A DNA stretch of 64,000 nucleotides, from contig NZ_CP060497.1 of NCBI RefSeq assembly GCF_014334135.1, positions 1,426,001 through 1,490,000 on the forward strand. Reading direction: 5' to 3'. The position numbers and the translations under genes are program-made. Of this stretch, positions 2,661 to 24,173 are shown piece after piece. A model generated the notes under the pieces. The model had not been told where the DNA came from, ran no database searches, and saw nothing but the letters and a program-made list of their open reading frames with translations. Every line of letters begins with the position of its first letter. Position 1 is the first letter of the stretch. The DNA is from Olivibacter sp. SDN3 (GTDB lineage Bacteria > Bacteroidota > Bacteroidia > Sphingobacteriales > Sphingobacteriaceae).

Positions 2661-4940
2661 TTAATAACACCTAATGGCAAACAGTGCGGCTGGAACTTCC
2701 GACGATGGATGTGCCAGCTGAATGCTAAGTTGGTCTGTTTTCAAAGGTGGGTCGAATATAAGTGTACGCCGTGTTTGATATTGATCGTGCACTTCGCTAA
2801 TTAGCTGGTTATCTGCATCTCTGATCTCGAAATGGCGCACGCAAAAGGGCATTACATTTTCGGGATGCCCCATCAATACGGACTCCATGGCATGATCGGC
2901 ATCGGTATCAAATAGGAGTACTATTCGATGGATGGATTGCTCGGCCGGCCAAGAAAGGGAAAGCATAGGATGCTCATCATCGGGGTCGGCCACCCAGGCA
3001 TTAGGCTGAAATACTGGCCGATCAATGCCATTACGCACGTTGTCTGCTGAAAAAAGTTTTTGGGCCTCGGACAGCCGGAGCGCGATATTATGCCCTTCCG
3101 GCCTACGCTGTGGGCACCAAAATTCGAAATCATCAATACCTGAGCCGGGCTCAGGTTGCTGCCGGCCGTTGTTGGACACCCGCTTATTTATGCCGTTATA
3201 TACAGATAGCAAGCCGGTTATCCGCTGCAAACTATAGGGCAGTTGCACCAACTCGTTCTTCAGGAAGGTAATAAAAACATATTGCGCTGCTGAAAGTTCA
3301 ATAGCGAAATCGATGGAAAGAGCTTGCTGTCCTTCTACAAGTGTAATCGTTTTTTTGGCTAATGTAGTATCGGGGGTAAAGCTTCCAGCTCTACTGCTGA
3401 TCCGTAACGCTATCTCCAGGCGGGTGGCCGCTATCGCCATTACAGAAAGAGAAAAAACAGGAACACGCCCCTTGCCTAATGGAAGGAGCTGGGCGGCAGA
3501 AATATCGAGTACCTTCCAAAGTAAATGTGCAGGATCAAAACCCTCGAACGCCAGTGAACTGGACGCTTCTATATGCGCGTGCTGTACAAGGTCGCTTTCA
3601 TCATGAAATACCTGACCAGGTATGTGTTGTCCTGTTTTCATCAATTCATGCTGCAACTGTGGTATGTGCTCTTGGGTATAGAGCTCTTTAGGCATGACCT
3701 GCAACGTTTTGCATAGCGCTGCCGCTACGGCTATAGCCTGACCGGTATAGGCACTGGTGGCCATCACGCGCGTTGCACCAAAGGCGACATGGCTTACACT
3801 GATAATACGACCGGCCAAAAACAAGTTTTTAATATTTCTGCTGTATAAACATCGATAGGGGATCTGGAATATTCCTTTGCTATGCCACTGATTGCAAGGG
3901 GGACGATCGCTGAACACCCCATCGGCCGGATGCAAATCAATCGACCATCCGCCATAGGCAACAGCGTCTGGATGTTCGCGCTGCTGGATGAGATCTTGCT
4001 GCGCAAGCATGTAATCGCCTTCGAAGCGCCGACTCTCCCGCTTACCGGGAATCATTCCTACCCATTCCAAGGTCATCGTTGCTGCCTCAGGGAATTTTCC
4101 CGAATTTTTGATATAATCCCATATGCCATACACCACACTCCACAGCTCCCACTTAATTTTTTCGGTGTCATGCACCGTATCCAGTCGGCCGCCATGCTCC
4201 ACCCACCACAGTTGACAGCCGTGTTCGTTGGAATTAAAGTTACGGAAACGTGGGATTTCTTTACTGACGTCCATTGCAAATGAAGGAGCGATGAATTTTA
4301 CCGGTTTTCCCGTGTCTTTGCTGTAAAAATAAAGAGAATGCCCCAAAAGCCCGCCATAGTTGGCGTCCGGAGCCATCGCTTCATTGAATTCTTCCCTCGA
4401 CTCCGCTCCCATACGGAAGGCCGCACCGGCCAGGAAAGCCAGCAAGCCGTCGCCGGTAGCATCACAAAAGAGCGGAGCTTCCAAATAATATTCGGTTGCG
4501 TTTTGACTACAAAAAGCCCTTATTCCGCGAATGCTATCGGCGCTGTTCTTCTCCAGGTTATAAACGGCAGTGTTCAGCAGCAAAGTGATGTTGGTTTCCT
4601 GTATAACCTTATCTAATAAAATCATATCCAGTATTACCGGGTTGCCCTCGGGATTGCGATAGGTATTTTCCACGAGCAGCTCGTCAATAACGCCGCCTTC
4701 ACGGCTCCATCGGTTATTGTTTCCCATATGTGAAGTGGCTCCCAACACCCACAGGCGCACCTCGCTGGAAGCGTTACCGCCCAATACCGGGCGGTCTTGC
4801 ACGAGCACCACTTTGAGTCCCTGCCGTGCAGCGGTGATGGCAGCGCAGGTGCCCGACAAACCTCCTCCGGCAATCACAAGGTCTGCTAATAACGTCTCTG
4901 TCCGAGTATCTCTTCGATGGGTAACATTTTCTTGAATCAT
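2661..4940 (-). CDS. FAD-dependent oxidoreductase (FAD_oxidored family), cytosolic type
   Basis: Contains a classical Rossmann dinucleotide site near the N terminus (VIAGGGLSGTCAAITAARQG, then VLVQDRPVLGGNASSEVR) and the family blocks CDATGDGLLAFLAGAAFRMG, GKRESRRFEGDYM and LYSRNIKNLFLAGRIIS. The roughly 300 C-terminal residues look like beta-sandwich accessory material. I place the start at the ATG at 4940; a longer reading from a TTG at 4967 would overlap the GH2 stop. There is no signal peptide, so the enzyme should stay in the cytosol, unlike its exported paralogue at 12054-13856. Homologues are often labelled putative xanthan lyase without direct evidence. The reaction is unknown; oxidation of an imported sugar is an inference from context. 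Confidence 0.85.
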   Translation of the reverse strand: MIQENVTHRRDTRTETLLADLVIAGGGLSGTCAAITAARQGLKVVLVQDRPVLGGNASSEVRLWVLGATSHMGNNNRWSREGGVIDELLVENTYRNPEGNPVILDMILLDKVIQETNITLLLNTAVYNLEKNSADSIRGIRAFCSQNATEYYLEAPLFCDATGDGLLAFLAGAAFRMGAESREEFNEAMAPDANYGGLLGHSLYFYSKDTGKPVKFIAPSFAMDVSKEIPRFRNFNSNEHGCQLWWVEHGGRLDTVHDTEKIKWELWSVVYGIWDYIKNSGKFPEAATMTLEWVGMIPGKRESRRFEGDYMLAQQDLIQQREHPDAVAYGGWSIDLHPADGVFSDRPPCNQWHSKGIFQIPYRCLYSRNIKNLFLAGRIISVSHVAFGATRVMATSAYTGQAIAVAAALCKTLQVMPKELYTQEHIPQLQHELMKTGQHIPGQVFHDESDLVQHAHIEASSSLAFEGFDPAHLLWKVLDISAAQLLPLGKGRVPVFSLSVMAIAATRLEIALRISSRAGSFTPDTTLAKKTITLVEGQQALSIDFAIELSAAQYVFITFLKNELVQLPYSLQRITGLLSVYNGINKRVSNNGRQQPEPGSGIDDFEFWCPQRRPEGHNIALRLSEAQKLFSADNVRNGIDRPVFQPNAWVADPDDEHPMLSLSWPAEQSIHRIVLLFDTDADHAMESVLMGHPENVMPFCVRHFEIRDADNQLISEVHDQYQTRRTLIFDPPLKTDQLSIQLAHPSSEVPAALFAIRCY

Positions 4941-21098: not shown

Positions 21099-21947
21099 AT
21101 GCGACAAAAAGAAGAATTATATTTGTTGTTTGATAAAATAGTGCTGGAAAATGAAGATATAAGGCTCTCTGTATTAGAAGGATCAAGAACAAACAGCAAT
21201 ATACCGGAAGACAACTTTCAGGACTATGACCTCTCTTTTTTCGTTACGGATATACAAAAGTATACGAAGCATGAAGATTGGTTGAAAGTATTCGGTGGCG
21301 AAATTATTGCCATGCAAAAACCAGAGGATATGGAATTATTTCCTTCGGAGTGCGAAAATTATTATAGTTATCTAATGTATTTTGATGACGGCATAAAATT
21401 AGATCTCACCATAATCCCTATTACCTTCGTTGATGAATATTTTTCTGCCGCCGATGGATTGAACAAAATCTTGATCGACAAAGACAATTTAGCTCCTGCA
21501 AACCTACATCCATCAGATAGATTGTATTGGATAAAGCGGCCTTCGGCACGAAGTTATGATGATTGCTGCAATGAGTTCTGGCATGTTTCCACCTACATTG
21601 CCAAGGCCTTTGCCAGAAAGGAGATACTCTACGCATTGCACCTATTCAATCAAATTAGTCGCCCTGAACTGTTGCGCATGATGTCTTGGGAGATAGGCAT
21701 CAGGTGTGGATTTGACTTCAGTTTAGGCAAAAATTATAAATTTATTGATCGATATATAACGCCTGCAACATTTGATAATTTAATGAAAACCTTTTCTCTT
21801 GATGGTTACGAAAAAGCACGAAATGCTTTTGAGCAGTGCTGTGAAATGTTCCGAACCTATTCGAAACTTATAGCGGATAAACTGGGTTTTGATTATCCGA
21901 TTTATGATAAAAACCTAACAGCTTTCAGTAGAAAGTACTACACTTAG
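21099..21947 (+). CDS. Aminoglycoside 6-adenylyltransferase-like nucleotidyltransferase, ANT(6)/AadS type
   Basis: A 282-residue protein matching the ANT(6) family in size and motifs: LEGSRTNSN near residue 27, DNFQDYDLSFFV with the metal-binding acidic pair, DDGIKLDLTIIP with the third acidic residue, and RPSARSYDDCCNEFWHVSTYIAKAFAR in the helical C-terminal half. Family members transfer AMP from ATP to streptomycin-like aminoglycosides. It stands alone, with no transposase or integron-like element near, so it looks like a resident chromosomal gene, of the kind common in Bacteroidota. Whether it gives resistance cannot be judged from sequence. Confidence 0.85.
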   Translation: MRQKEELYLLFDKIVLENEDIRLSVLEGSRTNSNIPEDNFQDYDLSFFVTDIQKYTKHEDWLKVFGGEIIAMQKPEDMELFPSECENYYSYLMYFDDGIKLDLTIIPITFVDEYFSAADGLNKILIDKDNLAPANLHPSDRLYWIKRPSARSYDDCCNEFWHVSTYIAKAFARKEILYALHLFNQISRPELLRMMSWEIGIRCGFDFSLGKNYKFIDRYITPATFDNLMKTFSLDGYEKARNAFEQCCEMFRTYSKLIADKLGFDYPIYDKNLTAFSRKYYT

Positions 21948-23024: not shown

Positions 23025-24173
23025 ATGTCTGGATATTCAATGTCAGGAACCACATTGAAGGTAATCAAACCGAGCTCGAAAAGCGACAGGAGCTTTAACC
23101 TGATTTACCTTTATTTCATTTTACTGCTAAACACCCTTCACATCAGCTTTTTATGCGCACAGGAAACCGGTTCTCAGGAAGCGGTAAAAGTGGGGGTTTA
23201 TGTTAGTCCCCCTTTTGTTATGGAGGAGGAGGATGGCTTTACGGGAATGTCGATCGAACTTTGGGAGGCCCTTGCAGAAAAGCTTGGTTTAACTTTTACT
23301 TATGAAAGAGCTTCGACATTCAGCGAACTCGTGGAAGGTACAGCGGATGGGCGTTTTGATGTTGCTGTGACCAACCTCACCGTTACTCAGAATAGAGCAA
23401 GAAAACTCGATTTTACGCAACCCTGGTACGATGCGGGGCTCCGGATCATGGTAGATCGGGAACACACATCGGGATGGACCGACGTGGTCAGGGGATTAAG
23501 CGACGCAGGACATCTGCGCACATATGCTTGGCTAGCTTTTTTGGTGATTTTTGCCGCCATTCTGCTAACACTATTTGATAGAAAGTTTGATAAAAACTTT
23601 CCCAGGGCTTTCCGGGAGGGGTTTGCAGAAAATTTTTACCACATTATGTCTTTGGCTACCTCGGGGAAAGCACAAAGAAAAAATCTTTTCGGTTGGAAGG
23701 GCCGTATATTTTCAGGCCTTTGGCTCGTTTGCGGCGTGGGCTTACTGGCCTACATCACGTCATCTTTGACCAGTGTGATGACTACCCAATCATTAACCAA
23801 TCGGATTAATGGGATTGGCGATCTGCCAGGAAAAAGAATAGGCGTTTTTATGGGTAGCGAATCGGAAAAATACACCCTTAACAGGGGTTTTTCAGCAAGG
23901 GCCTATCAAGGTATTGAGGATGCAATCCATGCACTGAAAAGAAAGGAAATAGATGCCATCATTGGCGATGCCCCAGTCCTGGAATACTATCAGCACACCC
24001 GATCGGAGGAACCCTTTGAGGTGGTTGGGCCGCTATTCAAACCAGACAAGTACGGGTTTGGGTTTATCAAAGACAGTGAGCTTACGACTCCGCTAACAAT
24101 AGAGCTATTAGGTGCGCACGAAAGGGGTTTTATCGAAAAGCTTCGCAACAAATATTTTGGTCAGATCCGATAG
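23025..24173 (+). CDS. Prokaryotic ionotropic glutamate receptor-type channel (GluR0-like)
   Basis: A solute-binding protein domain is interrupted by a pore module. Order: signal region (to about residue 46); lobe 1 (VGVYVSPPFV to QPWYDAGLRI) with the ligand-carboxylate Arg in TVTQNRARKLDFTQPW; membrane helix 1 (AWLAFLVIFAAILLTLF, about 168-184); re-entrant pore segment (NFYHIMSLATSGKAQRKNLFG); membrane helix 2 (GLWLVCGVGLLAYITSSLTS); lobe 2 ending in the amino-group Asp motif DAIIGDAPVLEYY. The potassium-type TVGYG filter is absent, replaced by SLATSGKAQ. Helix 2 ends in the TSSLTSVMTT sequence typical of this superfamily. A homotetrameric, amino-acid-gated inner-membrane channel is expected; its ion selectivity is unknown. 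Confidence 0.88.
   Translation: MSGYSMSGTTLKVIKPSSKSDRSFNLIYLYFILLLNTLHISFLCAQETGSQEAVKVGVYVSPPFVMEEEDGFTGMSIELWEALAEKLGLTFTYERASTFSELVEGTADGRFDVAVTNLTVTQNRARKLDFTQPWYDAGLRIMVDREHTSGWTDVVRGLSDAGHLRTYAWLAFLVIFAAILLTLFDRKFDKNFPRAFREGFAENFYHIMSLATSGKAQRKNLFGWKGRIFSGLWLVCGVGLLAYITSSLTSVMTTQSLTNRINGIGDLPGKRIGVFMGSESEKYTLNRGFSARAYQGIEDAIHALKRKEIDAIIGDAPVLEYYQHTRSEEPFEVVGPLFKPDKYGFGFIKDSELTTPLTIELLGAHERGFIEKLRNKYFGQIR

Follow-up and report, generated by a model that had tools for sequence, protein, structure and literature searches.

Within the window, by which we mean the whole stretch of 64,000 nucleotides of Olivibacter sp. SDN3 DNA that was analysed, we find the gene of a glutamate-receptor-like channel protein, P0001 (Table 1). 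A search of the 6.1 Mb genome returned one match only. The neighbouring genes encode an adenylyltransferase, a DUF4468 protein, a GNAT protein, an AraC protein and an M24 peptidase; at 21099–21947, two genes upstream of the channel gene, lies a member of the streptomycin adenylyltransferase family (Pfam Adenyl_transf, E 5.7e-95). Ahead of the ligand-binding lobe segment S1 the chain has only the signal segment, and it ends with S2, so that both the M4 helix and the amino-terminal domain are absent.

Table 1. Features of the P0001 gene, with positions in the window.
Feature	Residues	Position	Strand	Basis
Whole gene, glutamate-receptor-like channel protein P0001	382 aa	23025–24173	+	ORF with ATG start; single copy in genome
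N-terminal hydrophobic helix, probable signal peptide	22–46	23088–23162	+	Sequence; AlphaFold2 helix 22–46
Ligand-binding lobe segment S1, with T119 and R124	54–145	23184–23459	+	Pfam SBP_bac_3, Lig_chan-Glu_bd; VIA-align 2 to 2pyy
R124, equivalent of GluA2 R485 (ligand alpha-carboxylate)	124	23394–23396	+	Invariant in 32/32 clade members and 37/37 GYG relatives
Transmembrane helix M1	163–188	23511–23588	+	AlphaFold2; clade M1 mean Kyte-Doolittle 2.3
Pore helix P (re-entrant)	196–213	23610–23663	+	AlphaFold2; hydropathy like GYG relatives
Filter loop TSGKAQRKNLFGWKGR, replaces TVGYGD; net charge +5	212–227	23658–23705	+	Alignments; charge count
Transmembrane helix M2 (= M3 of eukaryotic receptors), SYTANLAA-like end AYITSSLTSVMTT	223–259	23691–23801	+	Alignment; AlphaFold2; conservation
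Ligand-binding lobe segment S2, with S278, E279 and D315	263–379	23811–24161	+	Pfam; PDB search; VIA-align 2; clade alignment
E279, at the GluA2 T655 / GluN1 V689 position	279	23859–23861	+	Clade alignment; alignment to 2pyy; GluA2 and GluN1 sequences
D315, equivalent of GluA2 E705 / GluN1 D732 (ligand alpha-amine)	315	23967–23969	+	Invariant in 32/32 clade members

Pfam, PDB search, AlphaFold2 and Foldseek agree with each other and confirm that P0001 is a bacterial ionotropic-receptor-type protein without the potassium filter. The SBP_bac_3 match is split around the pore (E 4.6e-22, residues 55–380) and is accompanied by Lig_chan-Glu_bd (E 4.3e-11) and Lig_chan (E 2.8e-7), the last with 30.9 bits barely above its cutoff of 30.8. 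Among the PDB matches to the sequence are 2pyy, the core of a Nostoc punctiforme receptor (E 7e-28), and the plant receptor GLR3.4, aligned across the pore (E 1.5e-22). The AlphaFold2 model, a monomer calculated from an alignment of 17 sequences, has a mean pLDDT of 81.4 and places M1-P-M2 between S1 and S2, flanked by the two lobes; in the membrane part the confidence is lowest at the filter (block pLDDT 61–69, residues 211–230). With this model, Foldseek aligned full AMPA-receptor chains (probability 1.00, E 4.1e-21). VIA-align 2 ranks 2pyy first for the lobe fold (Z 31.1, rmsd 1.3 Å over 212 residues, 31% identity), where Z values within 1 of it, for example those of GlnH and GluR0, are ties. 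The full ionotropic-receptor order that the initial annotation had read from the gene is hence borne out. The reading of P0001 as a soluble SBP_bac_3 binding protein is ruled out by the M1-P-M2 segment between the two halves.

Bacterial receptors without a potassium filter have been known since 2010, and the kind to which P0001 belongs is therefore not new. Ger et al. describe 22 bacterial receptors of S1-M1-P-M2-S2 topology. The 12 of Group 1 have the potassium filter and the 10 that define Group 2 lack it; for the latter, whose channel region is poorly conserved, they propose the label "putative glutamate-sensitive ion channel" (PMC2950845). P0001 shares with Group 2 the bacterial origin, S1 and S2 around M1-P-M2, the conserved Arg and Asp and the missing potassium filter, and it is by these features that we assign it there; the main text of that paper does not mention the basic TSGK/RKNLFGW loop (PMC2950845). 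The GluR0 protein of Synechocystis, a Group 1 receptor, has both termini outside the cell, transports K+, influences cell volume under KCl stress and rescues a K+-uptake-deficient E. coli strain (PMC13099474). GluR0 and the GYG-type Bacteroidota receptors have the same domain order as P0001, likewise with neither M4 nor an amino-terminal domain, but they carry T[VT]GYGD where P0001 has TSGK with the basic loop. P0001 thus lacks both the TVGYG filter of Group 1 and the M4 helix and amino-terminal domain of the eukaryotic-type receptors. In the literature searched, to which subscription papers largely did not belong, we found no electrical test of any Group 2 channel or of any relative with the TSG filter.

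The pore of P0001 reads TSGKAQ at the place where TVGYGD would stand. The initial annotation had pointed to the missing TVGYG, and the two motifs that it quoted are exact (SLATSGKAQ, residues 209–217; TSSLTSVMTT, residues 245–254). We aligned the pores of up to 93 bacterial sequences, to which the tree set adds the chains of GluA2, GluN1 and GLR3.4; the GluA2 and GluN1 references agree letter for letter with the PDB chains, and GLR3.4 was taken from the PDB alignment. The alignment contains the TSG type, the GYG type, an alphaproteobacterial NGG type (V-N-G-G-F-E-E-R-x-P) and several degenerate types. Further degenerate filters are found at L047, L052, L063, L064, L053 and L055 (for example IGSSDGYP, TQASTGHRGP and TIGDEAP), and Vibrio and Photobacterium receptors among the degenerate-filter loci carry ITRGPFNYFEF.

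The TSG clade follows the loop pattern T-S-G-[KR]-x(2,3)-R-K-N-L-F-G-W. G214, R218, F222, G223 and G226 are invariant in 32 of its members, and Lys or Arg directly follows the filter Gly in 30/32. The net charge of residues 211–227 has a mean of +4.2 and a minimum of +4 (n=32). The GYG type averages +1.65 (n=37) and the NGG type +1.0 (n=12), and the three eukaryotic chains lie at +1 to +2. L017, an additional member of the clade, has a lower loop charge of +2. In these alignments the strongly basic filter loop is one of two features by which the clade stands out, together with the loss of the ligand-site Thr. The initial annotation had named a loss of hydrophobicity in the pore helix as grounds for giving up its reading; this was not found, since the mean Kyte-Doolittle value of the P helix is 0.57 here, versus 0.63 in the GYG types.

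Because the filter is T-S-G-K and not T-V-G-Y-G, potassium selectivity should be lost in the P0001 pore. One may nevertheless argue that P0001 is still a potassium channel in which T-S-G-K at the T-V-G-Y site forms a partial K+ filter. Loop lengths in the TSG clade differ by no more than one or two residues from those of the GYG relatives, and TSG pairs with TVG in one alternative register of an alignment that leaves a one-residue uncertainty in how the filter loop lines up with TVGYG or the Q/R/N site. Yet Tyr-Gly-Asp is absent, and the Lys or Arg that follows the Gly in nearly all members brings a charge opposite to that of the GYG-D of K+ filters, so that we regard a remaining potassium channel as very unlikely.

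At the ligand site, GluA2 R485, T480, S654 and E705 align with R124, T119, S278 and D315 of P0001. The amino-acid-binding Arg and Asp recognized in the initial annotation are thus the counterparts of R485 and E705, and both are unchanged in 32/32 proteins with the TSG pore. The closest solved fold, the Nostoc punctiforme GluR0-like core 2pyy, makes the same carboxylate and amine contacts, but it keeps Thr at the position of GluA2 T655, with glutamate in the crystal, where P0001 has Glu279. GluA2 T655 touches the side chain of glutamate. In this column the TSG clade has Val in 21/32, Thr in 5/32 and Glu in 2/32 members, and the NGG rows have Thr throughout. GluN1, whose ligand is glycine, has Val here. 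Because the side-chain Thr is replaced by Glu279 in P0001 and by Val in most of its relatives, the ligand of P0001 is probably not glutamate. For the clade it is perhaps a small neutral amino acid, a prediction within which E279 sets P0001 apart as a special case.

The constraint on the sequence is unevenly distributed. In the TSG clade the mean share of the majority residue reaches 82% in the P helix, 83% in the filter loop and 80% in M2, compared with 67% in S1, 62% in S2 and 28% in the signal segment. Pairwise dN/dS within the clade is 0.08–0.15 for pairs with dS >0.2; a nearly identical pair (dS 0.01) gives an uninformative 0.44. The clade is hence under purifying selection that is strongest on the pore, which fits a working pore. 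These values, the pore as the most conserved part and the occurrence of relatives in 16 other genomes show that P0001 is not a chance ORF. They also bear on the idea that P0001 conducts nothing and serves as a membrane-anchored sensor or binding protein for amino acids, with a degenerate pore that only keeps the subunits together. The lost potassium filter, the basic loop, SBP_bac_3 as the best Pfam match and the annotation of similar proteins as transporter substrate-binding proteins would all suit such a sensor. However, the pore region is better conserved than the binding lobes, which argues against a pure binding protein, the P helix has kept its hydrophobicity, and neither an ABC permease nor a kinase is a conserved neighbour. 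A sensor of this kind therefore appears unlikely.

We consider it probable, based on the sequence and the model, that P0001 is an amino-acid-gated, non-potassium-selective channel of the Group 2 kind in the inner membrane, and that it is probably not gated by glutamate. Four subunits would assemble in the inner membrane, their clamshell domains projecting into the periplasm. R124 would bind the carboxylate of an amino acid and D315 its amine, which would close the clamshell; the closure would pull on M1 and M2 and open a pore whose lining is formed by the P loop and M2. By analogy with the topology of the ionotropic glutamate receptors, the charges of the TSG loop should face the cytoplasm, where a conserved ring of Lys and Arg would lower the calcium permeability and may admit anions. 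The case against the channel includes the strongly basic mouth, unusual in cation channels, and the lack of any conserved gene neighbour hinting at a role. With +4 to +5 per subunit, the mouth would carry about +16 to +20 per predicted tetramer. One may speculate that this basic mouth gives the clade an amino-acid-gated, anion-permeable or even anion-selective pore in the glutamate-receptor fold, in a family spread by plasmids and phages, a proposal that we judge to be quite unlikely.

The initial annotation also saw in P0001 a greater resemblance to eukaryotic receptors than to potassium channels, and possible help in reconstructing how the receptor pore evolved. Neither the greater resemblance nor a place on the route to the eukaryotic pore is supported. 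GluA2, GluN1 and GLR3.4 share with P0001 the pore loop between two membrane helices, the split binding lobe and the SYTANLAA-like helix end. This end does not discriminate, because TVGYG-bearing bacterial receptors have it too, for example SSFTAAITSVLT in L024. P0001 differs from the eukaryotic receptors in the absence of M4 and an amino-terminal domain and in its basic filter loop, and other bacterial types come closer to them than its clade does. For the whole protein, the median phmmer scores of the TSG, GYG and NGG types are 32.5, 59.3 and 73.0 bits to GluA2, 33.4, 53.3 and 59.0 bits to GluN1, and 61.2, 72.2 and 81.9 bits to a 289 aa stretch of GLR3.4. The differences between TSG and GYG have p values of 2e-12 (GluA2), 3e-10 (GluN1) and 0.004 (GLR3.4), calculated over related and hence non-independent sequences. 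P0001 itself reaches 85 bits to GLR3.4, the best of its clade, while the GYG protein L024 has 111 bits. By these scores the TSG clade is the least eukaryote-like of the three bacterial groups.

For the trees, the TSG, GYG, NGG and other rows were combined with three eukaryotic chains only, and the end branches are long, so that the deep order is tentative. In the tree without filter columns the TSG proteins form one clade (support 100/100). A Paracoccus denitrificans relative, L051, is placed inside the TSG clade. The four Bacteroidota TSG rows form one clade with 97/81 in one tree and with 92/93, not starred, in the tree without filter columns. The alphaproteobacterial NGG proteins (L061, L074–L083 and L085; apart from L061, all come from the family of G452) form a clade with 100/99; their pore NGGFEERxP resembles the GluN1 loop NSGIGEGAP. 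A starred branch (99/97) groups the eukaryotes with TSG, NGG, one cyanobacterial protein and three GYG proteins, without the eukaryotes adjoining TSG. This branch is consistent with the view of Ger et al. that Group 2 is nearer to the eukaryotes. A single GYG clade is rejected in the second tree, which has more NGG rows and other types (p-AU 0.0015); it was not rejected in the first tree with its single NGG row (p 0.24). Given the starred branches, the GYG label must have changed at least three times. Because a single GYG clade is rejected, the absence of TVGYG marks no one lineage: the filter was altered more than once among bacterial receptors, and its loss is no mark of eukaryotic descent.

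Whether the TSG clade is the direct bacterial sister of the eukaryotic glutamate receptors is a question of ancestry that does not compete with the functional readings. A clade of TSG and eukaryotes is not rejected, with p-AU values of 0.404 and 0.417, and the 99/97 branch has the eukaryotes on the side of the TSG, NGG and cyanobacterial rows. But this clade was recovered in neither tree, the same side of the branch includes GYG-bearing rows, and the similarity to the three eukaryotic receptors is below that of the GYG and NGG types. We thus hold a sister relationship to be highly improbable. The NGG clade is the better bacterial comparison for the eukaryotic pore. The TSG clade is compact and single-gene, its ligand site is altered, and its pore mouth is conserved and strongly basic, which makes it a good candidate for learning what a glutamate-receptor pore conducts with neither the potassium nor the eukaryotic filter.

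The TSG relatives in the 16 other genomes have 44–63% identity to P0001, the nearest being from Parapedobacter (63%), Chitinophaga (61%), Gelidibacter (51%) and alphaproteobacteria (44–57%). The hosts of the clade are alphaproteobacteria, a few Bacteroidota, plasmids and one phage contig. Plasmid-borne relatives with 43–54% identity occur in Agrobacterium, Paracoccus, Phyllobacterium and Salmonella; the full-length relatives on Salmonella enterica plasmids (H15–H18, 43–44%) are labelled substrate-binding proteins. Four other genomes of the same genus gave no relative of P0001. The only matches in a sample of 60 relatives were one GYG-type protein (28%) and two partial ones of <100 residues, at 29% and 24%. 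In 395 Bacteroidota genomes, the usual receptor type is GYG: leaving aside the window's own locus, 29 loci were fetched, of which 28 have this filter and none the TSG filter. High-scoring members were found in 14 of 101 genomes of the family of the Devosia relative. The patchy occurrence in Bacteroidota suggests horizontal transfer of the TSG gene. The GC content of the gene is 46.0%, compared with 40.1% for the window and 36.9–45.3% for the neighbours checked, which is only suggestive of a foreign composition. A comparison of the window locus with those of 17 relatives, 18 loci in all, showed no shared adjoining genes except within Rhizobiaceae, and no prophage context was found around the P0001 gene.

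The phage contig IMGVR_UViG_3300020599_000097 from IMG/VR (L102) carries at 2890–4005 a TSG-type channel gene with 57% identity to P0001. None of 50,697 phages searched has a relative of it. The gene lies on the opposite strand, flanked by genes for a phage portal-Acb1 fusion and a head maturation protease (Pfam, PHROG), and appears to be phage cargo that encodes a receptor-type channel. In Synechococcus phage Yong-M2-251, other opposite-strand cargo occupies the slot after the portal gene.
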